DNA of 64,000 nt. Origin: Hypericum androsaemum. Its lineage: Eukaryota; Streptophyta; Magnoliopsida; Malpighiales; Hypericaceae. Below, one piece after another: positions 5,138 through 59,929 of this stretch (position 1 is the stretch's first letter; each line of letters opens with the position of its first letter). The notes beneath the pieces are model-generated. The model saw only the letters and a list, made by a program, of their open reading frames with translations, was not told the origin of the DNA and did no database searches. A program made the translations under genes and the position numbers. The DNA lies in NCBI GenBank assembly GCA_963995505.1, contig OZ023190.1, positions 15,060,092 through 15,124,091 of the forward strand, in the 5' to 3' direction.

Positions 5138-6323
5138 TAGTGGCAGGCTTTTATAAATTACGGGGAAGCAGAAAAGCGAACAAGTTGGCTGTTTTGGGTT
5201 TTCCGAGTTTAATGGAAAAGCTGTTGACTAGCGATTTGATTATTTCACTTCCATGTACTTAGATGTAATATTTTTAAAAACGAACCAACGTTGAATCAGT
5301 AAATTTTTTAGATCGTAGTCCGATCAATTAGATCATTAACTAAATCAGAATTATATTTAATAAAATTTTATTAATTATGCTTAGAATCAAAATGTCAAAT
5401 AATTTTAACTATTTTTAAATTTTTATCAAAAAATTATCATTTATAATTATTAAATTCTTTATCTAACAAAACTCAACAAATATTTTTTAAATGAGCTAGA
5501 TCTAAACTGGCTGGTGCAGTGAATTGTCGAGTCCAACCACTTGGGCCGCGGATGAATAGTGTTAATCACAGACCAATAATCCTCCGCTGATATAAAAACG
5601 AACCATAATCAATTCCAAGTGGTGCCACAATTCGAATAGATTTGGGATTTTTATGAAATCTAATTCGAGTTAAATGACTTATTTTGTTTTCTCGTGGCAG
5701 TTTGAATGGTATTTAAGGCGATTAATTTGAATATCTTTCTTATGATATGGTGCCTCAATTTTGGGATTGCAATTAACGCGCGTGAGTAATATAGATACAT
5801 CAATTATGTAATTGTGTAATGTGATCTTAACATGGGAACCCAAGATTTAATTCCTTTTGAGTATATAAAATGGGATTAAACTTGTTTTTGGAAGAAAAAA
5901 TGGGATTAAACTTCAAAACATGCGAAATATCAAATTTCTTAGCCAATAACTGAATCTCAAAATTTACCAAACACTATTTGCTCTAATGGTATAAAGAAGG
6001 ATGGAAATTTGGCTTGAAACGACGAGATTTTAAACTTTAATTATGAAAAGATTCTACTTATAAAAAACTCACTCTCCAAATTTGAACAACCGTTACAGAC
6101 AATTTAGGTTAAAATTTTATTTTTATTATATGGAAACTTAGGAATTCTTCTAGTGGGAAATAAATCTTTAATTTAGAAACCACGTGTTATAATCTCTGTC
6201 ATCAAGCACCTCCAAATTTTAATCAACTTCAAGCAGCTCCAGGCGTGGTTACTGCTTACATATTTAATGGACCATTTGTGGTCAGAGACGCCCATTTTTT
6301 TATTTAAAAAAACAACTTTATAT
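5138..6323. other. AT-rich intergenic stretch
   Basis: No coding region, RNA gene or delimited repeat is recognised between Mutator-like elements 1 and 2. Confidence 0.5.
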
Positions 6324-6332
6324 TTACGATTT

Positions 6333-7664
6333 GGAAAAAGTCTATTTTAGTACTATGTAGTATCGCCAAAAATTATTTTAGTACCATGTGGTAAAAAACT
6401 CATCAATCGAGTCAAACCTCACTTAATTTACATCACTTAGGTCCACGGGCAGCTGCCCGGACTTGCCCGGACCCTGCCCGGCCAACTAGACCAGCAACGT
6501 CATCAAAATCTGATGAAGTGGCATCCTCACCTTCTCCTCTCTCTTTTCCCCTCTCTCTTCTTCTTCTTCTTCTTGATACGAACCCCTACAAGAGAGGCAA
6601 GGTTCACCCGTCCCCACCCCTCCCGCTTCCGGACCACTTCCTGTCCCTCCTCCCGACTGCCATCCTCTCCCTAACTGCCGCCCTCTCCCTCGACGACCGC
6701 CAAGTCCTCGCCTACCTCGTCTCCGGCTGCCCTAACGCTGCCGTAGCTCCTCGCCGGAGAGATGACCACGTGCCAGCTTCGGATGCGACGTCATCAGAAT
6801 TAATCACCGAGTAATCGTTGCCCTAGCGCGGTATTCCTCGAGCGGTCCGAATTCCCATGGAGAGAGATGAACGGCGAGTTCCATTACCGGAGCCACAGGG
6901 GGAACCGCCGCTAGACCAAGGATGATGGCATCTACATCGCCTTCGCCAACGAAGACTCTGACTCCGACGATGGAGGTTGCCACAAATTTAGGAAGGAGAG
7001 AGACGACAGTTTTAGGTCCGAGGAGAGGCGATTATTAATGCGTGGCTGTTTGTTTGTGGTAGGTACGGTGATGCCAGAAGAGAATCCTGATGGTGAGCAG
7101 TCGGCTTGGGGGGTGGCGTGGGCGGAGTTAGGGTTTGGTGGTGATGGAGACGACAGCTTCTTGCCATATGAATTTGGAAGGAGGAAAACAGAAGAGGCAC
7201 AGAGGTTGGATACGAAGGAGATAGGCTGGAAGTTGATGCAGTGGATGGGGTATAAGGGAGGCGGGCTCGAAAAGGATGAGCAAGGGATACTGGAGCCAGT
7301 CGAAACACAGATGCGGCCAAAATGTATGGCATTGGGCTACAATGGTTACAAAGAGGTGGTCGTGGCCGATCGGGTTGAGGAGGAAAACAAGAAGAAGAAT
7401 AAGAGAAGAAGAAGAGAGGGGAAGGAGGAGAGAGAGGGGAAAAGATAGAGGAGAAGGTGAGGATGCCACATCATCAGATTTTGATGACGTGGCTGGTCCA
7501 GTTGGCCGGGCAGAGTTCGGGCAGATCCGGGCAAGTTTGGGCAGCTGCCCGTGGACATAAGTGATGTAAATTGGGTGAGGTTTGACTCGATTGATAGATT
7601 TTTTACCACAGGGTACTAAAGTAATTTTTGACGATACCACAGGATACTAAAATAGACTTTATCC
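6333..7664 (+). mobile_element. Pack-MULE 2 carrying a STIP/TFIP11 fragment
   Basis: The inverted repeats are about 230 bp long. The left begins GGAAAAAGTCTATTTTAG and the right, reverse-complemented, begins GGATAAAGTCTATTTTAG. Both include the phrase 'gggcagctgcccg'. The flanking 9-mers TTACGATTT (6324-6332) and TTATGATTC (7665-7673) match at 7 of 9 positions, as expected for an aged Mutator duplication. No transposase is present. The cargo is a broken STIP-like fragment (6861-7355). A GC-rich piece upstream (about 6600-6780) reads LPDHFLSLLPTAILSL and may come from another, unrecognised gene. Confidence 0.88.
6861..7355 (+). pseudogene. Captured STIP/TFIP11-type G-patch protein fragment
   Basis: Two blocks resemble the N-terminal part of plant septin- and tuftelin-interacting proteins (TFIP11/Ntr1 family, spliceosome disassembly). 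The first (6861-7020) reads NGEFHYR, an in-frame TAG, then TKDDGIYIAFANEDSDSDD, matching the TIP N-terminal region. The second starts VVGTVMPEE and ends with a G-patch, GWKLMQWMGYKGGGL, followed by DEQGILEPVETQMRP. The in-frame stop and the lack of everything after the G-patch mean it is not a working gene. The reading direction is plus, inside Pack-MULE 2. Identification rests on remembered family motifs. Confidence 0.75.
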
Positions 7665-7673
7665 TTATGATTC

Positions 7674-8190
7674 TTATATAGTCGCCATGAAATCCTATCT
7701 TTTACCATTTACTTTCAATAAATTTCTGCTTAATTACTATTTCTTGGTTAATACACTATTTATCCCGATAACTACTTCACCAATAATCTAGGTTAAAATT
7801 GGATAGAAGTATCAAATGAAGACAAAGTTTTCACGATTAGTCTTTTGTCAAGATCGTCTAGTATTCGGACTCGAGTGTACGACTAATCCTATTTGAAATC
7901 TGATCTAATTATAACTTGGTATCATATTAAGAGTTTGAGATACGTTGATATATCATTTGCCACGCCGGTCATCTCCTACTTCCTCTCAGGTGACCATTTT
8001 ATAGTCTCCTTAGGATTCTAGCTCAACTACAACAAAGCCTGGTCAAATTATTTCCAATCTTTAAGAACTTTGTTGGTCAAGTTCAGACAACAATGACCTT
8101 TGTTTAGTAAATTGAGCACCACATTCTCAATTTTGCTCTAAATATTACAAATAAATATGATCCAAAAACTATACACATAGAGCTACAATT
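7674..8190. other. Intergenic stretch
   Basis: No feature is recognised between Pack-MULE 2 and the LTR-like repeat copy A. Confidence 0.45.
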
Positions 8191-8194
8191 TATC

Positions 8195-10560
8195 AGTTGA
8201 CAAGTTTTTATAAAATGCAACTGAAGATAGTCAAAACAGAGCTTGAATGAGTCTCTTTCTGATTGGACTTCATTTGGAATCAACCAATCACCTATTACCA
8301 CTTGCTAGTTCATTAGACTTGGTTAAGTAGGTGAGTCAAGCTGGACTCTTACTCACCTACATACTTTTGGGACTCAGGAACCTTAAGGAAGAGGCAAGAA
8401 ATTTTGAGACTCAGCCATAACTCAAAAGAGAAGAGAAAGTTGAGAGAGAGAGTAAGAGGAAAAAGAAAGAAGTAGCTGATAAAGAATGACTTGATAAGCT
8501 ATATTTTGTCTCGAACTAGATTTTGATTCCTTGATCAAAGTTGTAGAGGACATAAAGAGCTTTCTAAGCATATATTATATGTCCAGTTCTGATAAAAAAA
8601 TTGGCGTAAAATTAGTTTTAAACTTTGGACTGTCTGCTCGAGTATCAAGTGAAGCGGTTGAAGAAGACATGCCTGGTAAGTTATTTACGAATTCGAATTG
8701 GACTTTAATGTCTTCACCGAAATTATAGAGAACTCAAAGATCTTTCTAATGGTATATATATGTTCTATTATTATCAAGGAACAAACAGAAAATTGATTTT
8801 GAATAACAGACTGTCTGCTGGAGATACAACTGAGGTAGTAAAAGAAGAAGTGCTTGGTAAGCATATTTGGACTCCGAATTAGACTTTAGTTTCTTCTTAC
8901 AGATTATGGAAGAATCAATTAGCTTTCTAACCGTATATCATATACCCTGTTTGGATGAAGAAATTGTCCAAAAAATTTATTTGAAAGACAGACTATCTGA
9001 CAGGTTTCCAAATGGAGCGAGTTTCAAGAGTTAAGAATTGGTAAGTAGATTATTTAGAATTCTAAGTTGATTTTTGACTATGAGTTATGAAGAACAGATA
9101 GGGGAGCTACTGTACAATGAACAAAAAAAGTGGTTTAAGCATGATATTGAAATATATGTGCTGTCTACCAAAGTTAGAGCGATTGAGCTTACCATGTGCT
9201 CCGTAGGTGTTTGGTTGGCAAAACTGATTCTTAGGTACAATTCTGATCATGATTGAATTGTATACATGTGGGTTAGTTAATAATGAAGTAAGGATTGAAA
9301 AGATTTGAGCTACTTTGGTACCTTTGGGCTATTTCAGACGATGGTTTGTGATTATGCCTTGGTTGGTTGTTTTAAAGTGTCGGAAGTAACTTGGCAGAAA
9401 AAGTGAGAAATTGACCTCAATTTGTAATGAAAAATTATTATACAGATCATGTAAGATTTTCTCAAAGTTCTTTCAGTGAAGAAAACTATCTGGAAAGAAT
9501 GGTTGAAGGTTGAAAGTGACGGGAGAATAAGACTCGGGAAATTGGCACTATTAAGTGATATTCGTTTGAGTAAGCGAATAGAACATAATAAATTTAGTTT
9601 TGTTTGGTGCATGTGCATGTTTCAGGCCTTGATTATGTGCGTCTCATGCATATGAAGTATGTTCATGAAGTGGTCATGTACATTTGTGATAAGATCGTTC
9701 ATGTTTGGATTGGTCTGTAAGAGATATGGCACATATTAATGGCTAGCTAGAGAATATATCTTTCCTAGCGTGGGGCGAATTTGTGTAGGTATGCTATGTT
9801 ATTTTTGGTGAGATATGGACAGGTTTTCCCGTGCTAACCGGGGATGTTAGCCTATGTGCACATAGACTGGGGATATCCTAGTTTACTACTATTAAACTTA
9901 GTATATGATTATGGAATGGCCATGTTGATATCCTTGTGCTGGAGAGGAAGTGGCCCGTCTAAATCTGTCTATAGCTCACCGTTTGTTCACTATGTGAACT
10001 TTTGTGTGTGTGTGATCATATGGTTGGCATGCATCTTGTGGTCTTGCATATTGTTGGACATGGTTAAGTTATGTCTCTCATATGTAGCTGACATAACCAA
10101 TATGTTATGTTCTATCTTCTTACTAAGTATTTTAAAATACTTACCCATTACTAATCTATCTCAGGTTAAAGCTATCATAGTTTGCCTTGGGTTCTGGAGT
10201 CCGTGGTGCATGCCCATCGCTTTCATTCGAGGGCTACTCTTTTGAGGTCTCCGGATTATGCTATCTTTTGTACTCTTGTATAGACGCTCTGTAGCGATTT
10301 TTAGAGGCTAGATCCTGGACTATGCTTTGGTTTGAACATGTATCACAGGGAACTCGTTCAGACTTTTGGTGATGGTTCTCACACCATCTTTGTATATCTT
10401 ATGTTTTGAGATGCATGTTTATATAGCGTACCCTGGTGTTGCTTTAAATAAAAGTTAATGAACTTTATACTACGTTTTGAGACTGGCTAGATCTGCATTT
10501 TGTAGTTTGTATATAGTGGAGTCTAGCGCTGATCACCGACCTCATGATGGGTCGTGACCC
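8195..10560 (+). repeat. Large LTR-like repeat, copy A
   Basis: This segment matches, in reverse orientation and with clear divergence, the segment at about 20694-22725. One end of copy A reads gggtcgtgacccc, matching the tgtcacaaccc end of copy B. Such ends are common in Ty3/gypsy-type LTRs of dicots, so both are best read as solo or remnant LTRs. Inside, about 8515-9060 holds three diverged tandem units of about 175-185 bp, each containing a 'tttctaa..tatat' phrase and ending near 'ttggtaag'. Left boundary uncertain. No coding potential. Confidence 0.6.
8515..9060 (+). repeat. Tandem units of about 180 bp inside LTR-like copy A
   Basis: Three diverged units are visible, each running from a 'tagagga..taaagagctttctaa'-like start through 'gactgtctgctcgag' to 'ggtaag'. 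Copy B has at least two such units (about 22040-22430, reverse strand). The array is therefore a property of the repeat family. Confidence 0.6.
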
Positions 10561-12462: not shown

Positions 12463-13873
12463 GAGAAAAGTACACTTTAGTATCTTGTAGTTTTACATTT
12501 TTCGTGTGAAGTACTCTGTGGTTTAAAATTGGTAATTGAGTCCCTGACGTTTACCAATAATTTTCTAGGTAGTTCCAAAGCAGCTGCCCGTCCAAACACG
12601 CTCAAAACAACCTCGTTTGTGATCTGACGTGGCAACAAAGTGAGTTTAGTTAAATGAGACGTGTAACATGACAACTTACCTAAACAATCCCTAATTTATT
12701 TATATTTTATCAAAATCAGTCACAATATTTTTAATAATTTTTCAACCACTTTATCTTCCCGAATTCCTTTCATCTTCCCCAATCCTTCCATCTTCAACCT
12801 CTTCCTCCTCTGAAAAATCTCAATTAAAATCCCCTAAATGAACACTGAAACCCTCAATTGAACCGGGTTAGTGCTTACGCGCCCAAACAATTCAACAAAT
12901 GCAACAATTTCTAACCCTAGATGCATCGAGAATCCATGGGAAAAATTAAGAAAGCATATCGAAGAAACAATAGGAAGAAAATCCATGATTCCTAACACTG
13001 AAAAAATAATAGGAAGAAAATCTTGATCTCCTTCTCCTACATCGAATCCACCCTGATGCATCGAGAATTCAAATTCCAATCCATTTCAATCTGCTCCTTT
13101 TGAGGAATCTATTGAGAGGTGGGATTGAAATTTGGTTAGAGAGAATGAGAGGGGTACAGGGAAGAAGATGACTGAGGAGGATGTGTTTTTGAAAAATGTA
13201 TGAACAAACAGACCTGGCAACCCCAACGATCGCGGCTTGGAATTCCTGACACTCGCGTTCACGGTGCCAACAGCCGCCTTCTCTGGCCTCGTGTCAGCAG
13301 CTCGATCCAAGGAGTTGGGGTTGATGTGCAGTGGATGACTAGAAGGATTTTGGCTTCTGAGTTTTGATCTCTGGTATAGTTTTTGGATGACTGGTGGGTT
13401 TTCCTCTCTTATGATGATGGCAGAATGGGTTGGTGGTTGGGCTTCGTCTTTTTCTTATTTTGGTCAACTTTGTTATTGTGAATTTACAGATTGGAACGTT
13501 TTGAAGCCTTACTACATTATTATGATGAGGAAGAGATGATCATGTAATGGTTGGATCTGATCTGATCGATCTGGTGGAGAAGTGGAGAATGGAGAGAGAG
13601 GTTGAAGATGAAGTTAGTTTTTTTTTTTAATACTAAAAATTTGGGACTATTTTAGTAATTTATTATAGTACATGTCAACTTTAACTAAATCCACTCTATC
13701 TGTCACGTCAGATCAAAAAATGAGGTTGTTTCGAGCGCGTTTGGATGGGGAGCTGCCTTGGACCTGCCCGAAAAATGACTGGTAAACCTCAGAGACTCAA
13801 TTACCAATTTTAAACCACAAAGTATTCCATGCGAAAAGTACAAAACTACAGGGTACTAAAGTATACTTTTTTC
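12463..13873. mobile_element. Mutator-like element 3, nested in an LTR
   Basis: Inverted repeats of about 200 bp start GAGAAAAGTACACTTTAG on the left and, reverse-complemented, GAAAAAAGTATACTTTAG on the right. A perfect 9-bp duplication, TAGTTTTGA, lies at 12454-12462 and 13874-13882. The element splits the left LTR of the decayed retrotransposon, so it is younger than that insertion. No transposase is present. A GC-rich piece at about 13205-13330 (plus, LTLAFTVPTAAFSGLVSAAR) looks like captured coding DNA of unrecognised origin. Confidence 0.88.
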
Positions 13874-17527: not shown

Positions 17528-18883
17528 CTAATAGAATTGTCGCTTCATCAACATTTCCTCATCTTTCCTCCCAGGCGTTTGAAGCTGCCAACAATGGGGA
17601 AAAAGTGAATTAAATTGTGAGCTTGCATATAAACGGGCCAGGTTTGTTGATTTACCTGATCTTGATAGGGTCCAGTCTTTGTCCTGGCCAAGGGCCCAAA
17701 AGAAGTGCCCGCCCAGTCCAAGCCCCTTAGCGAACTGGATCTTCAAATCAACGGATCCCACATCGTCGTACCCGGCCCAAGTCGACCCAGCATACGAATA
17801 ATAAGCCACAATCTCCCCATCATAATTCACCACTCCCTTGCTCCACTCATTGAACTCCACAATGTTGCTGTAACTCCATATCCCGGGGATCCTCGCCCAC
17901 GTCCGAGGGCCCCGGCCCGAACGCCGGAGCGCCGAACTCGTTCTGTCCGGGGTTTCGGAGCATCCAGGTCCGGCCGTACAACGGCAGGCCAATCACAAGC
18001 TTACCAGGCGATATGCCGGATTCGGTCCACGTTCTGAGCCCATAACTGGTGCTCATATTGGACTTGTGATCGTAAAGGGCCGCACTTGGGCCAGTGAACT
18101 TGTTCCACGACCCGTAGTGATCATAACACATCGGGCCCACCCAATCCAGGTACTTGTCCTGGTGCGGGCCGGATACCGACGTGGCAGCCCGTAGTTGATA
18201 AATACCGAAGAATAATAGACCGCGGAAGTCAAAAGAAGGCGCAGTTTAGCGCTCACAAGAGCGTCGAATTCTAACGGGCGCCTCCACTCCTTGTACAGAT
18301 GGGCCAGATTGTCCATATCCGTTTTGTTCTCCGGGTACTCCCAGTCCAGATCCAGCCCATCGAACCCGTAATCCCGGGCGATCCGAATCGTTGACTTTAT
18401 AAAGACCGATCGCTCCTCCTTGGTCCCGGCCATCCGGGAGAAGATTTTGGGGTCGTTGGCAGCGCCGCCGATGGAGAGAAATGTCTTGACGGGGGTGTGC
18501 TTCAGAGCGGCGATGAGTTCGGGCATCTTAACGGCGTCGTTCGGGGTGACGACCGGTTGGAGGGAGGCGGGGTCCACCTGGAGGAATGCGTAGTAGATGT
18601 GGGTGAAGTAGGAGGCGTCGATGGAGGAGGGAGGGAAGTCCTTGAAGGACTGGAAGTAGGCCGCTTTGATTACTTGCGGAGGAAGTCGGCCGGGCCGGTC
18701 ATAGCCCTGAGTTGGAGCCGGAGAATTAGACGGCCAATTATTAGGGTTACTTGACCCGGCCGGAACCGGACTTGGGCTCGGAGTCGATGATGGGTAATAT
18801 TGGGAATTTACGCCAACGATGGCAAGAGCTTGGAAGATCGAAGCAACCACCAAAGTGGTCGTCATCATTTTGTGCCCAGACAT
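17528..18883 (-). pseudogene. GH18 class V chitinase copy with two frameshifts
   Basis: The sequence reads as a secreted plant family-18 chitinase, which cleaves beta-1,4 N-acetylglucosamine polymers outside the cell. From the Met at 18883 there is a signal peptide (about residues 1-28), a Pro/Ser-rich linker and the catalytic barrel, with LSIGGAA and the catalytic motif DGLDLDWEYP (about residues 175-184) intact, including the acid/base Glu. Near 18155-18170 the frame shifts before DKYLDWVGPMCYDHYG. Near 17885-17905 it shifts again before PGIWSYSNIVEF. The last part has GGHFFWALGQDKDW, the normal C-terminal block. No intron fits either break. It is probably a pseudogene; two sequencing errors would restore a normal length of about 370-380 residues. 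Confidence 0.85.
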
Positions 18884-20693: not shown

Positions 20694-22725
20694 TGTCACA
20701 ACCCATCCTAAGGTTGGTGACCGGCACTAGACCTCATGACATACAAACGAAAAAATAAAGATTTAGCTAGCCTCAAAACATAACATAAAGTTGATCAACC
20801 TATTGAAACCAACACAAAGTTAAGCATATAAACATGCCTCTCAAAATATAAGATAAACAGAGACATACGAGAATTCCATCACCAAAAGTTTGGACAAGTT
20901 CCCTATGTTACGTGATCAAACCCAAAACGTAATTCATGATCTAGCCTCTGAAAACCACTACGGAGCATCTATACAGGTGTACAAAAGACATCATAATCCA
21001 GAGACCTCAAAGAGTAGCTCTGGAAGGAAAGAAATGGGCATGCACCACTGACTCCGGAACCCAAGACAAACTAGGATAGCTCAGAACTTAAGATTGATTA
21101 GTAAAGGGTAAGTATTTTGAAACACTTAATAAGAACATAGAACATAACATATTAGATACAAGTGGATAAAACAGAACTTAACTATGTTCAACATCAGATA
21201 AGACCACAAAATGCATGCTAACCATATGATCACACACACACCCACACAAACCGTCAACAAACGGTGAGCTATAGACAGATTTAGTCGGGCCACTTCCTCT
21301 CCAGCGTAGGGATATCAACATGGCCATCAAATCTCCATATCATAATCACATACTAAGTTTATAGTAGTAACTAGGATATTCCTAGTCTATGTGCACATAC
21401 GCTAACATCCCTGGTTAGCACAAAAAAAATAACATAGCATACTCATCACAAATTCAAAGGTCCAAAACCATATCCAACATAAATAGACATATCAAATCCT
21501 CACAAATTGGCCCCAAGCTAGGAAACATATATTCTCTAGCTGGCCACACACAAATACCATATATATCACCAACCAATCCAAATATGACCAAACATATCAC
21601 ATATGCACATAACCACTTTAAAGACAACTCATATGCATGAAACACACATAATCAAGGTCTGAAACATGCATATGCACCCAAAAAAAATTATCATGTTCTA
21701 TCCGTTTACTCAAATGAGTATCCCTCAATAGTGCTGGTTTTTTGAGTCTTATCCTCCCTTCACTTTAACCTTCAACCGTTCTTCCAAGTTGGTTTCTTTC
21801 ATCGAAAGTACCTTGAGGAAGCCTTATATTCTCTGTACAACAATTTCCAATCACAAAATGAGGTCAGTTCCTCACTTCTCCAACCAAGTTACACACTGGG
21901 CGCACGATAAACTCAATCGCTTATAACTTCGGTATATATCATATAAAATCCGATATCACATAAAACCCGATCTATTTATTCAATGTACTCAAACTCTCAT
22001 GTATGTTCTTGATAACTGAGAGTGCAAAAATTAACTTAAAATCCCAAAGAATCAACTTACCCAGCGTTTACTTTTGGACCTTGCTTAATTCTGAACCAGC
22101 CAGCCAGTCTGTCATTCAACCAAGCTTTCTCGGTGACCCCTTCATCCAAATAGGGCATATAATATGCTGTTATAAAGCTTATTTAGTCTTCTACAACCTG
22201 TAAGAAGAAAGCAAAGTCTCAATTTGGAGTCTAAGTAGGCTTACCAAGCACTTTCTCTGCCACCCGCTCAATTGAATACTGAAGTAATTAGTCTGTTGTT
22301 CAAAACTCATTTTCTGTTGATTCCTTGATCCAAATAGAAAATATGATATACCGTTAAAAAGATATTTGAGTCCTCTACAACTTTCACGAAGACATAAAAG
22401 TCCAAATCTGAGCAAAAGATAACTTACCAAGCTGTTCTTTCGTCTCCTGCTTCTTTCTCTTTCTTCTTGCTCTCTCTCCTCTCTCTCTTCTTCTCGATTT
22501 ATGGGTACGTTCTGGAGCTTTCTTTCTCCTCCTTGATATTTCTGAGTCATAAACGAGAGTAGGTGACTAACCACCCCACGTGACCCACCTTTTCAACTCA
22601 TTTTAATGAGTTTACAAGTGGTGAATTACGATTGGTTGCTTAAAAACGTAGTCCAATCAGAAAATTCCTGATTGCAGCTCCATTTGCACTGTCTTCCCTT
22701 GATTTTTGTCGACTAGGAAGAGCAA
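20694..22725 (-). repeat. Large LTR-like repeat, copy B
   Basis: This is the inverted, diverged partner of copy A (8195-10560). It starts TGTCACAACCC on the plus strand, matching the end of copy A. It shares the 'ctgattggact' phrase and the tandem units of about 180 bp (here about 22040-22430). It is probably a solo or remnant LTR of the same family. No coding potential. The right boundary is approximate. Confidence 0.58.
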
Positions 22726-23387: not shown

Positions 23388-23412
23388 TATGCCGTTGCAT
23401 GTAGTTTAAAAA

Positions 23413-24848
23413 GGCAAATTACTCTCAAGTCCCTGGCCTTTGGTCACCCTCCCCCTAGGGTCCCTGACTTTTGAAAAAAAATTATCCCGTCCCTAAGTTT
23501 TGATGATAATAGACTATCGGGTCCCTGGAGCCAGAATATTCCATATTCTTCGACGATACCCCACTTGAAAACGACGATACCCCTTGTTAAAAATCTTCAT
23601 CCTCTTCCTGGGAATCAAAACTTTTCAATTAAAAATAAAAATTAACAAAACAACTAAATCTTCATCTCCATCCCCAAATTTTCATCTTCGTCTCCAAATC
23701 TTCTTCCCCAAATCTTCTTTAAGAATTTATCAAGAAATTAAAAACCCGCAAGAAATAAAAACCCAGAAACTAAAAATCCAAATCTTCTTCTCCTTCGTTG
23801 CTCGCCGACGAGGTGGACGAGAGGATGCCCTCCGCTTGGAATCGGAGCCATTGCGAGAGTCGGAGTCTGGGGACCCTCGGGCTTGGCAGAGACGGACTTC
23901 CTCGAACGTCTCTTCTCCTAAGTCCAAGAGAGCGGCATTTGCGGGGCCTCCGTGGCCCACTTTCTTCACGCCCATCTGCCTCGTCGTGCTCGAGCAAAAC
24001 TTCACCGTCAGGGGGCGCATGGCCACCGTCACCATCACCACCGGCGACACGTTCGAGGCCGGGGCCTCCATCCTCCACCCTCAGAACTACCACGCCCATC
24101 CGCCTCTCCCACCTCTAAGACCACCTCCTCTACTACCGCCAAACCCTCTTCCTCCTCCTCCACGCCCAAACCTCCCGCCACCGCAGCGTCGCCATCAACA
24201 ATTGCGGTTACGATAACCGTAACTGCCGTTGTCGTCATCTCCAAACCTAGTTTTGTGAACCACATGATCACCGAAAGCAAGAGCAATCAAATGGAGGCCG
24301 ATGCACAAGAACAAGAAACACAAAGAAAGCCGTTTCGAGAGGGATGACCACCGATGATTAACAAATTAATTTGTCATTTGGGATGCAACCACGAACGAAT
24401 TAACGAAATGACCACTAATCTATGAGCCTAATGTATTGAGAGGGATGACCACCGATGATTATGTAGGGTTTTGTTTTTAAATTGTGATTTCTAATTTAAA
24501 TTGGAAATTCTAAAATTAAAATTTTTAAATTTTTAATTCTCAATAGTTAAGTTTTGGTTTGAGTTTTGGTTTTGGTTTTGGTTTTGGTTTTGGTTGAGAG
24601 TGGGAGGAAGAAAGGGAGGAAGAAGGGGAGGTTTAAGGAGAGGGGAGAAAGAGAGAGTAATTTTTTTAAGTGGGAGAGGCATTTAGTCTTTTTAAGTAGG
24701 AAATTGCCGGAGAATGTGGAATATTCTGGCACCAGGGACCCGAGAGTCTATTATCACCAAAACTTAGGGACGGGACAATCATTTTTCAAAAGTCAGGGAC
24801 CTTAGGGGAAGAGTGACCAAATGTGAGGGACTTGAGAGTAATTTTCTC
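23413..24848. mobile_element. Pack-MULE 4 carrying a farnesylcysteine lyase fragment
   Basis: Inverted repeats of about 140 bp start GGCAAATTACTCTCAAG on the left and, reverse-complemented, GAGAAAATTACTCTCAAG on the right. The perfect 9-bp duplication GTTTAAAAA lies at 23404-23412 and 24849-24857. No transposase is present. The cargo is GC-rich (23800-24240) with an FC-lyase-like block. A short (TTTTGG)n run lies at 24555-24595. Confidence 0.9.
23945..24098 (+). pseudogene. Captured farnesylcysteine lyase N-terminal fragment
   Basis: A block reading VVLEQNFTVRGRMATVTI, then GDTFEAGASILHPQNYHA, matches the N-terminal FAD-binding region of plant farnesylcysteine lyase / prenylcysteine oxidase, which recycles prenylcysteine and modulates ABA signalling. 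Just upstream, AHFLHAHLP in a neighbouring frame corresponds to the preceding 'SSVAHFL' region, so at least one frameshift separates them. The rest of the enzyme is absent. DNA at 24100-24240 inside the element may come from another gene. Confidence 0.72.
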
Positions 24849-24857
24849 GTTTAAAAA

Positions 24858-27246: not shown

Positions 27247-28524
27247 AAATAAAGAGATAATTACCTTACGATTTCTGGTGTTTGAGCAAACTTATTTTTT
27301 TTTATAAAAAAATTATTTTTTAATCCTTATTATTTTCAATAATTTTTTTTGGTCTTTATAATTTAAAATAATAACTTTTTTGGTCATGTCAGCAGTCAAC
27401 ATATATTCTTTTATGATCATTATACCCCTGGAAAAAAGTCAAACAAAAACAAAAGACCATCTTCGTCCTTGGACATCTTCATCTTCTTCCCTGCATATTT
27501 TTCTGGGAATCAAATCTTTCAATTAAAATCAACAAAAACCAAGAAAACAATTAAACCAAAACCAGCTAGACTAAAATAAAAAATGGCCATAAAAGCGATG
27601 TCTGCCTCCACGGTCTCGATAAAGGCGAACCCCGCCGCTCAACGGAGGCCCGTTGTCGTCTCCGACAAGAAGAAGAATCTCGGAACCCAGGAGCTCTTCC
27701 CGGCCGATGCTCAGACGCCAGCCACCGCCACCGGAGACGCCATCCTGAGCAACCACTCGATTCGAGGGGAGGCGGTGACGTCGAGGGACGCGGTCCAGGT
27801 GAGGAAGACGAGCTCCACCGTGTTGCCGCGGAAGCAACGGCGGGGCGGGAGGCCGGAGAAGCCGTGGTGGATGCGGGCTGTGAGCATCGTCGTTGACTCC
27901 ACCGGGTACGACCGCGGCGAAGATGCTCCAGGTCTTGGTGGAAGTTGTGGATACGAAGCTGGAGAGTGAGGTTGGAGGTCGGGGAAGATGGAGGAGACAG
28001 CCTCAAAAAAATTTCCATGTGGGTTTTCCAGATCTTGGCCTCCCCCATCGAACAACTCCCAACAGTAACTTGACTTGCTCTTCAGTTGCGTCCCCCATCA
28101 AACAACTTCAGTTGTGTTGCTCAAGCACTAGTTCTAATTCCATGGATGAACAACTCCCATGGCTTCTGTAACGAAATCATGTTCCGCCGCTTGTTTTTGT
28201 TTCGTGCTTGTTTTTGGTTTACCTTCTAGTTGATTTTAATTTTTAATTGAAAATTTTTGATTCCAGGAAGAAGATGTAAGGAGGAAGATGAAGAAGATGC
28301 CTGGGAAAGAGGACGGTCTTTTTGTAAAAAAAATTGTGACTTTTTTTGCAGGAAAATAATAGTTATTAAAAAAGTTATGTTGACTGCTGACATCAGTGGT
28401 GGATCTGTTAAGGACAAAAAAATTATTATTTTAAATTAAAAAAACCGAGAAAGACTTTCTAAAATATTAAGAAATAAAAAAAATATTTGTTCAAACTCCC
28501 ATGACCTTAGAGCAATTATCTCTT
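27247..28524. mobile_element. Probable Pack-MULE 5, upstream of the zinc-finger gene
   Basis: Long AT-rich inverted repeats (about 27251-27440 and 28300-28524) share 'AAGAGATAATT' at the tips and 'TTGACTGCTGACAT' further in. The 9-mer AAGTAAATT lies on both sides (27238-27246 and 28525-28533), though the left tip carries about four extra bases. No transposase is present. The GC-rich interior (27580-27970) carries an open coding-like stretch. The right end is only 206 bp upstream of the zinc-finger start codon. Confidence 0.72.
27583..27969 (+). CDS. Open captured sequence, product unknown
   Basis: A 128-codon open frame starts at an ATG and is basic, with Ala/Ser-rich N-terminal sequence and a segment RPEKPWWMRAVSIV. 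Its GC content is far above the AT-rich inverted repeats around it, suggesting host-gene origin. I do not recognise the family. The minus strand is also open here (27566-28048), so coding direction is not proven. It may be only a captured exon. Confidence 0.3.
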   Translation: MAIKAMSASTVSIKANPAAQRRPVVVSDKKKNLGTQELFPADAQTPATATGDAILSNHSIRGEAVTSRDAVQVRKTSSTVLPRKQRRGGRPEKPWWMRAVSIVVDSTGYDRGEDAPGLGGSCGYEAGE

Positions 28525-51778: not shown

Positions 51779-52841
51779 ACTGATTTTCTATTAAATAAAT
51801 AAAGTTCAAGAGAAAAAAAAATGACCCACCCACCACACACCTCCTTCCCGGCTCCCCCACCACCAAAAGAGACGCTCCTGTGAACAGGGGCGGAGAGACA
51901 TTATAAATAGTGGGGGCAATTACCCCCTCTTAATTTTTTGTTTGTTTGATAACTATGAATATTTTTTAATATATGTCCCCACTAAAATTAGAAATTGACC
52001 CCACAAAAAAATTAATCACCCTAAAAATTGAAACCAAATCTTAACAAAATTTAGGCATTTCTTGAAAAAAATTATATTGCCTCCACTCTCCAAATTTTTT
52101 GGCTCCGCCCCTGCTGGGAACATGTGCGACCTTGTCATTTTTTTGCCATTTATTTTACAACTATTACAGTTTTGACACTGGGAGTTCTCCTTTTTCCCTT
52201 TGATCAGGTCCATTCTGAAACGGGCTTGATGACGCTGCCTTCGGACCCAGATTCTCGAAGCTCTCAATGGGCTCGAATCCTAAACTAACCTCTGGGGCTG
52301 AGATGTCTGATTTTGATACCAAAAATGATTTCGCGAAATTAAGTTTCGCAAAAGATTTGATGATTATCCTGAGTTTTTTCTCGTAAATTTTGATATGAAG
52401 AATCGATTATTCTTTACTATTATTGGGTGACTTTCCAACAATTGTGTTCCAATTTTTTTACCATTTAATTTGATTGCGTGACATGTTAATGCTTTTCCTA
52501 GCCCTTTAATTGGATAAAAAAGAGGATATCCGAAGATAGATTACCTTAACATGTAATCATTAATCACATCCATTCTTATTAGAAAATAAGAATATCTTGA
52601 AAATTTAAATATTGGTAAAGTAAAACTAACTCACGACACTCCTCAATTAATCAAAATATAATTTCTCAACATATAAACATTCAACTTTCACGTCCACAAT
52701 AATACAATAAATAATTTACAAATTTTTTAACTTTCATGCACGAGATACATACAAAAATGTTTTACCTCCAATAAAAAAAATAATGATAAAGTGGATTCCA
52801 TTATATTGAGGAAAAATGGGATATATTAAAGTGGATTTGAA
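51779..52841. other. AT-rich intergenic stretch
   Basis: No gene is recognised. A short inverted pair, 'aggggcggagaga' (51887) and 'tggctccgcccctg' (52102), spans about 220 bp and may be an unlabelled MITE. Confidence 0.4.
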
Positions 52842-52853
52842 TATGCACGAGAG

Positions 52854-52944
52854 ATTTTCCAAAAGGGGGTTGATTTCCCCGACAATTCCCTGAATGGGGT
52901 TGTCAGGGAATGTATTCCTTGTCTGGGGTTGAGCCGGAAACCGC
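52854..52944 (+). repeat. Left terminal inverted repeat
   Basis: It contains CCAAAAGGGGGTTGATTTCC, GAATGGGGTTGTCAGGG and TTGAGCC. The same order occurs on the minus strand from 58059 down to about 57969, with about eight differences. Confidence 0.85.
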
Positions 52945-52969
52945 AACGGCTTTAGCGTTTTTTGGTTAC

Positions 52970-53225
52970 CAAAAACCGCCCCCGTGGGAGCGTTATTTTT
53001 CATGCCAAAAACTGCTCCGGCTGGAGCGTTATTTTTCATGCCAAAAACCGCTCCGGCTGGAGCGTTATTTTTCATGCCAAAAACCGCTCCGGCTGGAGCA
53101 TTTTTTTCATTTTCATGCCAAAAACTGCTCCCGCTGGAGCCTTTTTTCATTTTCATGCCAAAAACTGCTCCCGCTGGAGCGTTTTTTTCATGCCAAAAAT
53201 CGCTCCCACGGGAGCGTTTCTTTTA
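52970..53225 (+). repeat. Left sub-terminal palindrome array
   Basis: Six or seven units of about 36-43 bp, each built as 'catgccaaaaacCGCTCC..CTGGAGCGtt'. Each unit carries a short palindrome of the GCTCC-gap-GGAGC type. More scattered copies follow to 54130. Long open frames across this array are repeat artefacts. Confidence 0.9.
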
Positions 53226-53264
53226 ATACCAAATAAGCATTTTTTTAGAGCAATTTTTTTACCA

Positions 53265-54545
53265 AAAATCCCACCAATTTAATTCTAATTGTCCCATTTA
53301 AACCAGACCCCGCATTATATACGTAAGCTTAGAATAAATCTCTTTAATTTTTGTCGTAATAAATTTCAGATTCCATTACTTTTTTTAACTTTTACCTGTA
53401 TAATATATAATATATATGGTAGTATAAGGTATTGGACAATTAACATCTGTAATAACGAGTTCACCCTGATAAAACATTCACAATATACGATTGAAACTTT
53501 TAATTTAGTGTGTTAATTATCTGAAAATTAGAAAATTAAAATTAAATTGCTTAAAAAACAATAAAGCAACGAAAACTTATTAAAATATGCTACCACAAAC
53601 TGCTGTCCCGGGAGCATTTGGGTTAAAAAGATGCAAATTTTTTTTGGTAAAATGCAAAACGCTCCCGAGGGAGCGGTTTGTGGTAAAATTTTTATACCTA
53701 CCATTCCATCAAACCGGCCACAAACCGGTCCACAGCGTTTTGAATATACCAAAAACCCACGGACCATTTTTTTATCTCGCAATTCAATTCCAATTGTCTC
53801 ATTTAAACGGTCTTAACCATTATACATGTAAGCTTGCAAAAAATCTCTTAAATTTTTGTCGTCATATATCTCCATAAATCTGAAATTTCATTAATTTTGT
53901 AACTTTTACATCTATAGTATATATGGTATTATATGTTATTGCGCAAACCGCTCCATAAATCTCAGATTTCTTTTTACCAAAAACTGCTCTGAACAAAATT
54001 TTTTACCAAAAACCGCTCCCAGGGGAGCATTTTCTTTTTGACCAAAAACCGCTCCCCCAGTAGCATTTTTTTACCAAAAAATTTTAAGACAAACCACTCC
54101 CGAGGAAGCGGTTTTTGGTTAACCAAAACATTTTTATACCAACCATTCCATCAAATCGGCCAAAAACCGGTCCACAGCGTTTTGAAGCCGAAAAGAACGG
54201 TTTGTGGTACAATTTTTATACCAAACATTCTATCAAACCGGCCAAAAACTGGTCCACAGCGTTTTGAATATATCAAAAAACCCACGGACCATTTTTTTAT
54301 CCCGCAATTCAATTCCAATTGTCTCATTTAAACGGTCTTAACCATCATACATGTAACTTTGCAAAAAATCTCTTAAATTTTTGTCGTCATATATTTTCAT
54401 AAATCTCAGATTTTATTAATTTTTTTACTTTTACATCTATAGTATATATGGTATTATGTTATTGCACAAAATATTGACAACATACAATAGAAACTTTAAA
54501 TTTATTTTGTTAATTATCTATAAATTAGAAAATTAAAATTAAAAT
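53265..54545 (+). repeat. Three direct repeats in the left arm of the element
   Basis: A block containing 'caattg.ctcatttaaac', 'aaatctctttaatttttgtcgt' and 'ttttacatctatagtatatatgg' occurs near 53282-53560, 53770-53945 and 54308-54545. The phrase 'ccggtccacagcgttttgaa' precedes the later copies (53726, 54168, 54250). The tail 'gttaattatctgaaaattag' recurs at 57729 in the right arm. Confidence 0.8.
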
Positions 54546-54648
54546 GAACCGCCTCAATGGCTAAAAAAATAATAAAGCAAAACAATATATTACAACATTT
54601 TTACCGAATTCAAGAAACAATAAAGCAATACATATAGAGATTATATTC

Positions 54649-55145
54649 TCAAGTTAATGAAGTTTCGCCATGTTTCTTGAACACTTTGATGACGTTCTCA
54701 TTAGTACCCTTAAGTAATTTTTGGCCATCCCCAGTATCATCCACTTTGACCTAATAAAATAACACATTAGTGAGTCAATATTTTGTCAAACCATTTTATG
54801 GTATCATATGAGAGTGATAAAATATCTTAAATTTTTTAGAACCAACACACATCCAGCAGCAACACTACCTGTGGAGTCACGTATGATACTAAAAAGACTA
54901 CCGGTAGGGTCCACTAAAATCAAAATGCCCTTAGGAACGAATATTTTTACATACAATACCATCTACAATACAAACACGAATAATACTTTATGTGGTTATT
55001 TTTTCTGAGATTTCATAGACAAATTAAATTTCTGTAAAATATTACCTGTGAAATTAAACTACCACCGGGCATCTTATTGAACTCCTCAATAGGTATCCCA
55101 ATAAAGGTATTTCCAATTAGCATACCTAAAAAAATATGTGTATAT

Positions 55146-55194
<49 letters not shown>

Positions 55195-55542
55195 CACAAT
55201 AAAAATGTAATAAGAGAATTTAGCTAATAACATGTGATACCTTGAGCCTTAACAAAGTGAACTGCTGATGTCCATGGATCTCTTTTGAAAATTTCATCAC
55301 TACGCTTTGGGACAAGAGGTAGACAACGTTTAGGGAGATTTTTTTTTGTAGTCTTTCAGTTTGCCTTGAAGCTCTAGCCGTCGATCTTTAATACATTGTT
55401 TCATATCAAAATGTGAGCCATAAAGTTTTTTATAATCTATACCCTGACATTGAGGAGAAAGCTGGGATAGTGACAATGGACAGTAAGATTCTTCTTCGCT
55501 CTCTATGTCTATATATTCTTCCCAATTTTGTGATGGATTCAT
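54649..55542 (-). pseudogene. HROB-like OB-fold gene, minus copy, broken
   Basis: This is a diverged paralogue of the plus gene at 55999. The pieces, in order, are 55241-55542 (MNPSQNWEEYIDIESEEES ... IFKRDPWTSAVHFV), 55046-55125, 54831-54962 (VDPTGSLFSIIRDSTG ... GCVLVLKN) and 54649-54750, which ends in TGA. The first exon is shifted by one base in an A9 run at 55339-55347, giving a premature stop. The expected donor after codon AAT (54831) reads ttaag instead of gtaag. The third piece corresponds to exons 3 and 4 of the plus gene fused without an intron. Its own TATA box is at 55593-55602. Confidence 0.72.
55130..55195. repeat. (TA)n microsatellite
   Basis: A run of TA dinucleotides lies in the first intron of the minus HROB-like copy. 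Confidence 0.85.
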
Positions 55543-55998
55543 TTCTAAAGTTTCGAGATTTTGAAGGTGCGAAAGAATGATGATGTTCACACATATATAT
55601 AGATCGGATTGCCCTTATCCCTAGTATGTAAAATCTAAATCTACTTAGTGCTTCTTATAAAGATGTAAAAATCTAAGCAAAATTATTTAAAATGTCATAT
55701 AGCCGGCGTGTTAACATACAACGCTGTTATTAGAGCGTGGTACCAAAACTGCTGAAACTTTAGCATTTTTAGGCCTTCTCTACTGTAACACATTTGTTTG
55801 TCTAATTTGTGCTACGTCATGTCTTACCCTACAAAAATTGGGATTCTTATCCAAAATCTGGAAATATAGATAACTTTATGATAAATCTAAATAATCTAAC
55901 AACTCTATATATATGCATGTATACAACAATTTTCTTTCACACCTTTTGCAGCTTTTCCAAATCAATTCATCTTTTATAAAAAATTGTTACTCCCAAAA
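55543..55998. promoter_or_regulatory. Bidirectional promoter of the twin HROB-like genes
   Basis: The 456 bp between the two start codons contain two outward TATA boxes: CTATATATAT at 55905-55914, 85-95 bp upstream of the plus ATG, and on the minus strand CTATATATATG at 55592-55602, about 50 bp upstream of the minus ATG. The middle is AT-rich with no open frame. Shared regulation is inferred. Confidence 0.6.
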
Positions 55999-56954
55999 AT
56001 GGATCCATTAAATAATTGGGAAGATTATTTACAATTGGATAGCGATGATGAATCGTATTATTCTTTGTCCCTAACACAATCTCTTCCTCCTCAACCTCGA
56101 ACTAGTAGGATCGCTGGTCCTGCTGGCCACTACCAAAATGCTACACGAAGGGCGTTAGCTAATCGTCGTGATGGCATTAGCTCCCATCCTGAACTGACAA
56201 CTCAGCAGGCCATTTATAGAGAATTTACCAACCCAATCTCTGACGACATTTTTGAAACAGATCCATGGACAACAGCAATTTTCTATATAATGGCTCAAGG
56301 TATGATGCACAACATCTTCTATAATTTCCTTTTATTTGTCGTAATGTGATATTAAAAATATTATGTTATTTTAATAGGTTTGGTAGATAGAGATATTTTC
56401 ATGACCACTATTGATGAGGCTAAACACACCAGAGATGTGCATAAAATTATGCAGGTACAACAAAATTGTTATATATTAATATATTTGATTATTTTTCATA
56501 TGTAATATTTTATAACATGCATATTTTATAATTGTTGTAGATGGTTGAAACTTTCACTCCTAATGGTTTAGGTGATGCCATGGTAGTTTTGAAGATATAA
56601 TGATAATAATTTTAAATATTCCCATAATTACAATATTTTTGACTACTTACAAAAATTTAATTTTTTAAGGACCCAACCGGTACGCTGCCTGCTAGCATAC
56701 ATCACCGTGTCTTCACTGAGGGAAATTTTGTGATTGGTGCTGAATGTGCAATAATATTATCAAATGTGAGTATATCCATTTAGCGATGAAATATTACATG
56801 ACATTATTATTATCAGTACATTTATGTAACAAATATTTATTGCTGTTTTTTTCAACAGTTTGTCGTTTGGGCTCCATTGCAGCGGAATGTGTTCTGCGGT
56901 AACATAACCATCAATAATGTGGTGGCAGTGTTTGCACCTGGTTCAACCATGTAA
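55999..56954 (+). CDS. HROB-like OB-fold protein encoded inside the element
   Basis: Five exons (55999-56299, 56378-56454, 56541-56582, 56670-56765 and 56859-56954) with good GT-AG sites join to 612 nt, 203 residues, without a stop. The N-terminus is acidic: NWEDYLQLDSDDESYYSLSL. Residues from about 95 to 200 resemble the OB-fold domain of HROB/C17orf53 (DUF4539), the factor that recruits the MCM8-MCM9 helicase in homologous recombination. Landmarks are DPWTTAIFYIMAQG, FTPNGLGDAM, KDPTG-like DPTGTLPASIHHRVFTEG, AIILSNFVVWAP and NITINNVVAVFAP. The start is the ATG matching the NWE motif of the minus copy. It is shorter than cellular HROB proteins. The minus twin is broken; this copy appears intact. 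The function in the element is inferred, not known. Confidence 0.8.
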
Positions 56955-57436
56955 CCATATGAGAGTGTGATTTTATGTACTTTTGTCCACATTTTGTGAT
57001 GTTGTGTTTCCCCGACTATGTAATAGAAACAATGTGTTGTTATTAACATATATTTTTATGGAATGTTATACGCTGTTTTAAGAAAGTAACAACCATATAA
57101 TCTGAAATAAAAAATACTAGCATCCATCTCAAATAACACAACAGAATACATAACAACAATCTCTAAAACCAAATAGTAGTATCAAAATAATACTATAAAT
57201 AGATGATTTTCTGATGACTCAATCGATTTTTTTAAGGACTTCAAATTTGTCGTGGGAAGGCATCTTTATTTATTAACAACATTTAAATCACTATACAAGA
57301 GTAGTCTTGTCCGAATAGTACAGTCATGACTAATAACATCCAAAGAGTAATAGCATCAGCTATATTGATTCGTATCCAAAAACTAATATTTCACTCTACA
57401 AAAAGTATGAGGGCCACGGCTAGGTTTGTCAATTTT

Positions 57437-57727
57437 AGTAATAGTGTGCCCTAAGTACATTGATGTGTCTCGTCATTCTGTGAACTGAAACGTCTATTAA
57501 AAAACGTACCGTTATTTGCCTGTACCAATCCAAGTATCTACTGTGAAAATGAATATCCATATTATTTGCAGGAGGACCTCTTACCACATGCCTATGGCGA
57601 TTTAACCACACTTCCACATGACATTTATATTGGACTTCCCAGTCTATATCAGTTCTACCTCTGCGCTGTCCCGCATGGATACCGTCGTCGGGCTCAGGAT
57701 GCTGTGGGATGGGTTGCGCTATCCCAA
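57437..57727 (-). pseudogene. Plant-mobile-domain protein C-terminal fragment
   Basis: An open minus-strand frame of about 96 codons ends in TAA at 57437. It reads DWEVQYKCHVEVWLNRHRHV, then VRGPP and YLDWYRQITVRFL, which resembles the end of the plant mobile domain (PMD; MAIN/MAIL1 and PP7-long-form-like proteins), a domain often carried by transposons. The N-terminal part is absent: the frame begins just after the repeat at 57727, perhaps at a splice acceptor 'gatag'. It is probably a remnant of an autonomous relative. Confidence 0.55.
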
Positions 57728-57824
57728 ATTGTTAATTATCTGAAAATTAGAAAATTATAATTGGAGTGAACCGATGGCTTAAATAAAGCAACGAAAACTT
57801 ATTTAAAAAATGCTACCACAAACC

Positions 57825-57968
57825 GCTGCCCCGGGAGCGTTTTATTTAAGCAAAAAATTTTGTTTCTTTGGCAAACCAAAAAACGCTCCACGGGGAGCGG
57901 TTTTTGGCAAAACTAAAAACGCTCCCCACGAATCGGTTTTTGACAAAACTAAAAACGCTTCCCGCGAC
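57825..57968 (-). repeat. Right sub-terminal palindrome array
   Basis: Four or five units containing 'aaaaacGCTCC..cGGAGCGgtttttggc' mirror the left array. Two units have decayed palindromes ('cacgaatcgg', 'cgcgacgcgg'). Confidence 0.85.
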
Positions 57969-58059
57969 GCGGTTTCTGGCTCGACTCCAGGCAAGGAAAA
58001 CATCCCCTGACAACCCCATTCAGGAAATTGTCGGGGAAATTAACCCCCTTTTGGAAAAT
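57969..58059 (-). repeat. Right terminal inverted repeat
   Basis: Reverse-complemented, it matches 52854-52944 in order: CCAAAAGGGGGTTAATTTCC, GAATGGGGTTGTCAGGGG and TCGAGCC. Confidence 0.85.
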
Positions 58060-58067
58060 TTATGCAC

Positions 58068-58282: not shown

Positions 58283-59929
58283 ATGGCGGACAAACCCAGC
58301 AGGGCGCTGGTCCTATACGGCGACGGATTGGCGCGCGGCGTCGGCTCCGAATCGCGCACCGACGACCTCCACTCCCTCGCCTCCCTGTCCTCGTGCGGTT
58401 TCCTGAGCCTCCCGGACGCTCCCTGTCCAGGTCAGCTCCGACGAGGGTAGTATGGTAATTTCTCATCCAAAACCCATCCGACTAACGGAAAACGTGTGAA
58501 ATCTGTATCAGAGAGCGAGGACGAGAGGATCGTTAGGGAGTTTGCACTTCTCTTGGATGCTTCGGTGAGCTTTTATTCCCTCTATTCTAATTTTATTCTG
58601 TTATTATTGATTGTCCTTTTTATTTATTTATTTTTTTTAAATTTGTAATATGTGATGATGCTTAATGTTTATTATTCCGGTTCTCTTAGGGCAAGGATTC
58701 GGCGATACCAACCCTATCAGATAGGTAATTGGTTGGGGGTTTCAGAGCTTTTTTAAAATTTTAATGTTAGTATTTGAGAATTGCTCTGTAATCTCCGGGT
58801 TCAGGTTCATGGAGATGAAGGCGGCCGTGGTTACCAGCAACCCGGGCTTGGGATCTCTCTGTGGCAAGCTGGGGCTGTCAGTGCTCCAGCTTGATCAGTT
58901 TGTTGCCAAGGATTTTGATTCCTCCAAGTCTTCGGTTGGTTGTTTGATCCTTGAGTTGGTGAAGCTGCTCGGGTTTCAAGACGGGAGGGTGCTCGAGACG
59001 TCTCCGTACGATTTGGTTTTCGTTCACATTGTGGACGGACAGACTGGGAAGGGTGTTCCTGCTGACGTGGGGTATGTGAATGATTTGGTGGGTGGTATAA
59101 TGCAGGTGGCTCCTCCTGGTTCGGAAATTGGTTCTAGGTTGCACTTGTCTGTTGTGATGAGCTACGGGCACGTGAAGGAGGGTGATCGCAATGATTTTTC
59201 AATCAAGATTTCCAAGGATGAGATAGACCCTGTTCTTCACGCTCTTGTCCCTCGTCAGAGTTACACGATGAGGGGAGAAAAAACGCGGGAGAATGTTAGG
59301 TATGAAGAATCATACCAACTGTTTTGTGCGAATGTGCTGCTTTTGGGTTTTTTTTCTTTTGTGTCATGCTAACTTGTGGATCAACAGGAATTATTGCCCT
59401 ATGCTGATTGCTCAATGGCAATACGCTGTAACTCGAGTGGACATGGCAGAGGCATTCTCATTCGGAGACTTTAAGCTGGTAAGTACATACTTGAAGCATG
59501 AAGCATTTCTTTCGATCTATATGACACTTACCTCTAAAGTTTATTTGTATCCCTAGCGTGCTAGACAGCGAGAAACTCGCCTCTTTTGTGCATAGAAACA
59601 TACGAAGCCCGTAAATGCTGAATTTGTGGTGGTTATGTCACATTTACCTGTAACCCTGAGATTAGCTGCAGCGCATATACTAGAACACATTGGTCTGAGT
59701 GATAAATCATCCAGACCAAGTTGGTCAGAAGGGTTTGTATCTGCAATGGACAAGACTTGAGAAAATGTTCCTTTAATTTTCCGTCTCCCATTCCAGTTGG
59801 TCTGCGTTTTTTGTACTCTGATCAGACTTGTCCTTTTTGCAGCGTGGAGGGAATCTAGTTATACCAGCCGATAGATTTCTCCATGAAGTAGCATTCAAGC
59901 TATGGAAAGCTCCCAAGTATGGGGCTTAA
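58283..59929 (+). CDS. Conserved plant protein of unknown function, six exons
   Basis: Exons 58283-58430, 58512-58564, 58690-58724, 58805-59299, 59388-59478 and 59843-59929 join to 909 nt, 302 residues, with consistent phases. It begins MADKPSRALVLYGDGLARGV and contains ESEDERIVREFALLLDAS, DLVFVHIVDGQTG, VAPPGSEIGSRLHLSVVMSYG and, near the end, NYCPMLIAQWQYAVTRVDM. No signal peptide or membrane span is seen. The opening 'ALVLYGDGLAR' and the central 'DLVFVHIVDG' are reminiscent of alkaline-phosphatase/phosphoglycerate-mutase-type metalloenzymes, but the metal ligands cannot be confirmed. From memory, plants have a single-copy family with this N-terminus and no assigned role. The gene appears intact. 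Confidence 0.85.

Follow-up and report, generated by a model that had tools for sequence, protein, structure and literature searches.

The window analysed here is a 64,000-nucleotide stretch of the 385-Mb genome of Hypericum androsaemum, and our subject is a 5,210-bp unit on contig C11 (52849–58058) that carries two divergently oriented genes of the HROB family between inverted termini. C7, C11, C14 and C15 denote contigs, L001 is the locus of the window, and the other L numbers are genomic loci fetched for comparison.

The HROB genes and the ends of the element

HROB-a lies on the plus strand (55999–56954; exons 55999–56299, 56378–56454, 56541–56582, 56670–56765 and 56859–56954). Its five exons, whose borders, like those of the other element genes, were read from sequence, are separated by GT-AG introns and keep an intact frame of 203 amino acids, as the initial annotation of the window had described. 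In a profile search, residues 121–199 matched the HROB family PF15072 (E 1e-10, 41.9 bits, for a curated cut-off of 30.8 bits), and HROB-a of a related element, L031, reached 51.3 bits. HROB-a retains the acidic start (NWEDYLQLDSDDE), the GPAG motif, the PWTTA stretch and the OB-fold exons.

HROB-b occupies the minus strand (54649–55542), head-to-head with HROB-a; its four exons (55542–55241, 55125–55046, 54962–54831 and 54750–54649) start at 55542, and the 456-bp spacer between the gene borders (55543–55998) is presumed to act as a bidirectional promoter. Inverted matches (I4, I7) identify HROB-b as a diverged inverted duplicate of HROB-a. The window copy is broken by an additional base in the A-run of exon 1 and by a GT to TT change at the donor of intron 3, and its exons 2–4 match PF15072 below the cut-off (E 0.007, 16.7 bits). 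In L031, HROB-b is open, scores above the cut-off (E 1.8e-8, 34.6 bits), and encodes a product 35% identical to that of HROB-a of the window. Judged by these matches, with HROB-a of the window and HROB-b of L031 both above the cut-off, both cargo genes belong to the HROB family, and the head-to-head HROB-type pair recognised initially is upheld. Pfam scans of the element HROBs at E ≤1 gave, besides HROB, just a weak Dendrin match. When protein databases were searched, neither the element protein nor a four-row alignment gave a hit at 1e-3, although the host HROB as query gave 68; in a search of solved structures the element protein had no match, and the alignment had two weak Bloom-protein matches (E 0.04) outside the OB-fold.

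The inverted termini and mirrored palindrome arrays of the initial annotation were also recovered, with corrected ends. The arms (52854–52988 and 57925–58059) measure 135 nt at 80% complementarity, and refinement placed the ends at 52849 and 58058, flanked by a target-site duplication of 7/9 identical positions (AATATGCAC, 52840–52848; TTTATGCAC, 58059–58067). The left terminal inverted repeat (52849–52988, plus strand) begins GAGAGATTTTCCAAAAGGGGG, and many relatives begin G[GA]GTAATTTTCC. The right repeat (57925–58058, minus strand) has apparently lost its last six or so bases. A GC-rich palindrome array follows the left end (52937–54115, plus strand), with a unit like AAAACYGCTCC..GGAGCGTTTT, and further palindromes lie near the right end (57819–57984, minus strand). 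The 26-nt palindrome unit occurs 16 times, 13 of them in the left 1.2 kb, one between the HROB genes and two near the right end. The sequence AAACYGCTCC, a pattern picked post hoc once the repeats were known, is found 10 times in the window (0.29 expected), always inside the element, and none of 100 shuffles reached 10. Between HROB-a and the right end lies a minus-strand remnant (57497–57730) of a plant-mobile-domain (PMD) gene, 97.4% identical to that of a full-length copy on C7.

Relatives in the genome and assignment to the MULEs

A DNA search of the genome gave at least 342 matches on many chromosomes, and a 25-base end pattern returned 86 exact matches, against none when the pattern was reversed as a control; other copies thus share these ends. 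Family members range in size from 1.3 to 13.4 kb. Among 13 two-ended elements, the 9-bp target duplication is perfect in nine, 8/9 in L017 and L020, and 7/9 in the window; no credible duplication was found around L031. Given repeated copies, shared ends and target duplications, the idea that repeats and host genes lie together by coincidence was rejected.

The full-length copy on C7 (L024, L029 and L034 together) spans 13,385 bp and has a perfect duplication, AATTTAAAA, at both flanks. It carries, in order, HROB-b on the minus strand, HROB-a on the plus strand, a transposase of the Mutator-like elements (MULEs), a 173-residue open reading frame (ORF), and a PMD gene on the opposite strand (E 1e-49). 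The C7 transposase, in L024, matches the MULE domain PF10551 (E 4e-19) and SWIM (E 8.5e-6), and its frame is interrupted. PF10551 was also found in L015 and L018, and the transposase of L049 was recognised by similarity. The small ORF at L024:8410–8928, for which no Pfam family was found at E 0.1, has a homologue on the opposite strand at L030:2949–3272 (34% over 62 residues, E 2e-9), likewise of no Pfam family, and the two form a second, convergent, duplicated gene pair on the same transposon.

Aligned to the C7 copy, the window element is 93.7% identical across the HROB pair, and the match then jumps ahead, resuming where the PMD gene ends, at 97.4%. What the element lacks in between is about 6.1 kb including the transposase (C7 4397–10543), and because of this jump we consider the unit an internal deletion product. 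The shared terminal inverted repeats (TIRs), the 9-bp target duplications and the MURA-like transposase of the full-length relatives place it among the MULEs; it is almost certainly a non-autonomous, transposase-less deletion derivative of a plant TIR-MULE family. The remark of the initial annotation that no standard transposase is visible is correct for the window copy, where a match was sought and none was found, and incorrect for the family, whose full-length relatives carry one. Its statement that no described element family has this layout is not supported, since the ends, the 9-bp duplications and the relatives' transposase are those of a MULE.

By sequence similarity, the copies fall into groups A (the window and close kin), B (L031, L040–L042), C (L032) and D (L033, L036–L039), and genes of the HROB pair occur in all four. 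A DDE-domain region lies downstream of the pair in 7 of the 26 fetched sites that contain parts of it, six from group A and one from group B (L015, L018, L024, L026, L027, L028 and the C14 element, L041/L049); L004 holds only the C-terminal part of the transposase, and eight of the sites (L003, L008, L036–L040, L042) cover at most about 2 kb beyond the pair. The C14 element, a member of group B, was sampled in two pieces, with about 11 kb between the pair (L041) and the transposase (L049) outside the sample. The C14 and C7 transposases are 88% identical. At its left end the C14 element matches L031, and past the transposase it matches the right half of that locus. The common ancestor of groups A and B thus most likely had the ends, the HROB pair, the transposase and the PMD gene.

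Origin of the cargo and selection acting on it

The genome contains at least 40 exon matches to PF15072, at least 35 of them above the cut-off, among the 150 of 298 candidates that were scored. Apart from the elements, an apparently ordinary plant HROB gene is found on C15 (L047; PF15072 E 3e-26), up to 63% identical to the HROBs of other plants. A frame downstream of it on the same strand ends like the C-terminal tail of those proteins, and this tail is missing from the element proteins. The L031 proteins are 39% (HROB-a) and 28% (HROB-b) identical to the plant's own HROB. With borders read by sequence, three intron positions are shared between element and own HROB, and a fourth is offset by four codons. 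A tree of 42 proteins, which carries a long-branch warning for HROB-b, unites the four element proteins in a single clade (support 99/97) and splits this clade together with the own HROB from the 37 others (90/81). We infer that HROB was captured as DNA, with its introns, from the lineage of this plant, and that a duplication or a second capture followed.

Short HROBs are also found in Lotus japonicus, whose proteins of 178–223 amino acids make up 13 of the 68 plant HROB clusters, two being isoforms of one gene. Eleven of them, included in the tree, nest within legume HROBs, and their placement suggests a separate multiplication of trimmed HROBs in this species, possibly on transposons; a single clade of Lotus and element proteins was left unrejected by the approximately unbiased (AU) test (p 0.24). 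In H. androsaemum, more HROB-like pieces were seen at L044:2686–4282, L045, L046 and L048, all but one of them close to other inverted repeats. The arms of L044 measure 114 nt at 96%, with similar palindromes (AAACCGCAC..), the two HROB-like pieces of L044 and of L045 are convergent and not divergent, and no clean target duplication was found around L044 or L048.

Selection was assessed from the rates of nonsynonymous (dN) and synonymous (dS) change. Between the window and L031, HROB-a differs by 15 nonsynonymous and 31 synonymous changes (dN 0.032, dS 0.272, dN/dS 0.12, Fisher p 9e-12), and four further A-B pairs gave 0.12–0.23. Exon 1 is the most constrained part (2 and 16 changes, dN/dS 0.03), and the OB-fold exons gave 0.18 (8 and 12 changes). 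As controls, the shifted forward frames yielded 3.66 and 1.35; one reverse frame yielded 0.22, as expected of a frame that shares the wobble position. Divergence between the same two copies rises from 0.075 in the plus-strand exons to 0.149 in the introns of that gene and 0.272 in the spacer. Against L031, the dN/dS of HROB-b is 0.29–0.40 (0.41 over 44 A-B pairs) and that of the PMD gene 0.45–0.54.

The transposases of six A copies, compared with that of C14, gave dN/dS values of 0.33–0.46 at dS 0.22–0.25, and codons 1–176 of HROB-a, for C14 (L041) and the same six copies, gave 0.13–0.30. HROB-a lies below the transposase in all six of these pairs, which share C14 and hence are non-independent, with a nominal difference in three (p 0.001–0.33). 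The stronger claim of a clearly tighter constraint on HROB-a than on the transposase was toned down, since this nominal difference appears in three of the six pairs and only without the last exon. As judged from these same-element comparisons, the constraint on HROB-a is at least as strong as that on the transposase. Together with the dN/dS of 0.12 between intact copies of the two subfamilies, this makes it unlikely that the pair is merely carried along.

Several observations weigh against a cargo that serves the element. The low dN/dS of HROB-a depends on the copies compared, its mean across 48 A-B pairs being 0.26, and over the full aligned length L041 against the six A copies gave 0.28–0.40, near the transposase, its last exon being no longer alignable. 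Group means for HROB-a are higher still (A-A 0.48, A-C 0.71, A-D 0.54, B-B 0.59, B-C 0.62, B-D 0.55, C-D 0.95, D-D 0.80), and the L002–L032 pair has a dN/dS of 0.62 (p 0.10). Within group A, the PMD gene reaches 0.67–1.37 and the small ORF 0.80, none of them significant. Both start codon and open frame are retained in just 8 of 21 HROB-a copies; an in-frame stop is absent from 13 of 21 HROB-a copies (at least 174 aligned codons) and 10 of 22 HROB-b copies (at least 190), frameshifts being uncounted. Moreover, the window element, L025 and L031 retain the pair without a transposase, and none of the fetched copies has a single uninterrupted transposase frame, as read without intron models. The weaker ratios, including those of older copies, are tentatively read as neutral decay after insertion, and the dN/dS data support the view that the cargo matters to the propagation of the element.

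Proposed function and comparison with known systems

In humans, HROB promotes gene conversion over long tracts; it binds single-stranded DNA (ssDNA), RPA1, through acidic stretches in its N-terminal part, and MCM8-9, through residues 396–413 ahead of the OB-fold (PMC7290032). Since HROB-a keeps the motifs and the OB-fold, and exon 1 is its most constrained part, contacts to RPA and the helicase are plausible. In the scheme we propose, the transposase would cut and paste the element, short copies such as that of the window being moved in trans. HROB-a, and probably HROB-b, would bind ssDNA or RPA at the transposition gap or at the ends, and the HROB proteins would recruit or mimic MCM8-MCM9-dependent repair synthesis, so refilling the donor site with the sister copy as template. 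Excision of a 13-kb element would leave a gap whose sister-templated refilling avoids loss, and it is there that an HROB protein would pay.

Our best explanation for the locus as a whole, which we hold to be probable, is a deleted TIR-MULE with an element-serving HROB pair, and a function of the pair on behalf of the element is, taken by itself, likely. As the initial annotation had proposed, the element may hijack recombination or replication machinery. The specific role in gap repair is put forward tentatively, as it follows from what is known of animal HROB, a dependence that counts against it. A bolder version appears rather improbable: that twin HROB proteins steer the host MCM8-MCM9 to refill the 13-kb gap and turn cut-and-paste into copying, a trick that may have arisen independently in Lotus.

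The main rival holds that the HROB proteins are VANC-like anti-silencers, or competitors of the host HROB, RPA or MCM8-9, and not repair helpers. The best-understood accessory genes of MULEs are indeed anti-silencing (VANC; PMC5735166, PMC10398659), a counter-silencing role has been suggested for PMD (PMC8616336, PMC5418596), and the element proteins do without the C-terminal tail that marks the HROBs of other plants and is also seen downstream at the plant's own locus. Conservation of exon 1 and of the OB-fold exons across subfamilies suggests, however, that partner binding was retained and not poisoned, and the Pfam scans gave no family beyond HROB apart from the weak Dendrin match; we judge this rival unlikely, though worth serious attention. 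Domestication by the host, with repeats or mobility incidental, would suit the intact five-exon HROB-a, the many HROB-like exons of the genome and the many short HROBs of Lotus japonicus, but the pair is housed in mobile elements that have ends of their own and are spread over many chromosomes, and the ordinary HROB is separate on C15, which makes such a role improbable by a wide measure. No more credence is due to a Pack-MULE passenger, that is, host gene pieces carried without a role: gene fragments are common in MULEs (PMC13317346) and many HROB copies are broken, including HROB-b of the window, but the dN/dS of 0.12 with its frame-shift controls, a constraint not weaker than that of the transposase in same-element pairs, and the presence in groups A–D of whole intron-bearing genes with a duplicated partner, and not fragments, argue against it. 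A new transposase-free superfamily copying by recombination-dependent replication, conceivable from the window copy, was rejected as highly implausible, since relatives that share its ends and cargo carry a MULE transposase, and duplications of 9 bp are a MULE footprint.

Around the element, a likely host-gene start codon, noted by eye (58283 onward), lies about 220 bp beyond the right end, a typical place of MULE insertion, and a Pfam scan of the host-gene stretch 58725–59369 gave no family. Elsewhere in the window, a MULE-like element (12463–13873) has arms of 157 nt at 83% and a perfect 9-bp duplication, TAGTTTTGA. At 6315–7682, inverted arms of 157 nt at 85% flank an ORF that encodes a G-patch domain (E 8e-10). 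This element resembles a Pack-MULE that has picked up coding sequence; a target duplication was sought around it and none was found. Two further inverted-repeat units of 1.2–1.5 kb lie at 23405–24855, with near-duplications AGTTTAAAAA and CGTTTAAAAA, and at 27306–28491. Inverted repeats in several pieces (9668–10242 and 21009–21618, 76–88%), about 11 kb apart, enclose an ORF with a GH18 domain (17531–17992). In the genome (G000), 150 of 736 MULE-domain candidates were scored, and many open frames of about 585–590 amino acids at the same score probably represent a different MULE, recently active in this genome.

The family resembles MuDR and other MULEs in its TIRs, its target duplication (8–11 bp in MULEs), its transposase and the presence of extra ORFs beside mudrA. 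Such ORFs include mudrB, which in maize is apparently needed for integration, and VANB/VANC (PMC6446971), as well as the Ulp1-type KIU (PMC13317346), and PMD was captured twice by MULEs (PMC5418596). Here, unlike in those systems, the extra genes are a divergent pair of HROB-derived OB-fold genes and an opposite-strand PMD gene. VANDAL, Kaonashi and PMD-carrying MULEs likewise have captured or accessory genes beside the transposase, but their cargo is anti-silencing, Ulp1-like or PMD, with no homologous-recombination factor among it as far as the searches went; in the PMD-carrying MULEs considered here, moreover, PMD is fused to the transposase, whereas it is a separate gene in the present family. 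With Pack-MULEs the window copy shares the lack of a transposase and the intron-bearing, host-derived coding sequence, captured in a non-autonomous MULE, with the own HROB as donor-type homologue. A captured piece of the Pack-MULE kind would, however, be a fragment missing from transposase-bearing elements, whereas the HROB pair sits there too, its genes being whole, duplicated and beside the parent's transposase, with HROB-a under purifying selection.

A literature search, with subscription papers mostly outside its reach, found no MULE or other transposable element described as carrying HROB or OB-fold cargo, and the term 'OB-fold' is absent from PMC6446971 and PMC13317346. The element is thus of a known kind, and its HROB cargo is new as far as literature searches reach. 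A MULE with a host-derived homologous-recombination factor constrained at least like its transposase bears on the questions of how cut-and-paste MULEs multiply and what role their extra genes play, and it makes self-supplied, repair-coupled copying directly testable. With plant and human HROB (MCM8IP, C17orf53) the element proteins share the PF15072 OB-fold, and with the plant's own HROB also the acidic start, the GPAG motif, the PW.TA stretch before the OB-fold and similar intron positions; they differ in their length of about 203–210 amino acids and in the missing C-terminal tail, and they would offer plant biology a naturally shortened HROB with which to dissect how MCM8-MCM9 is loaded.

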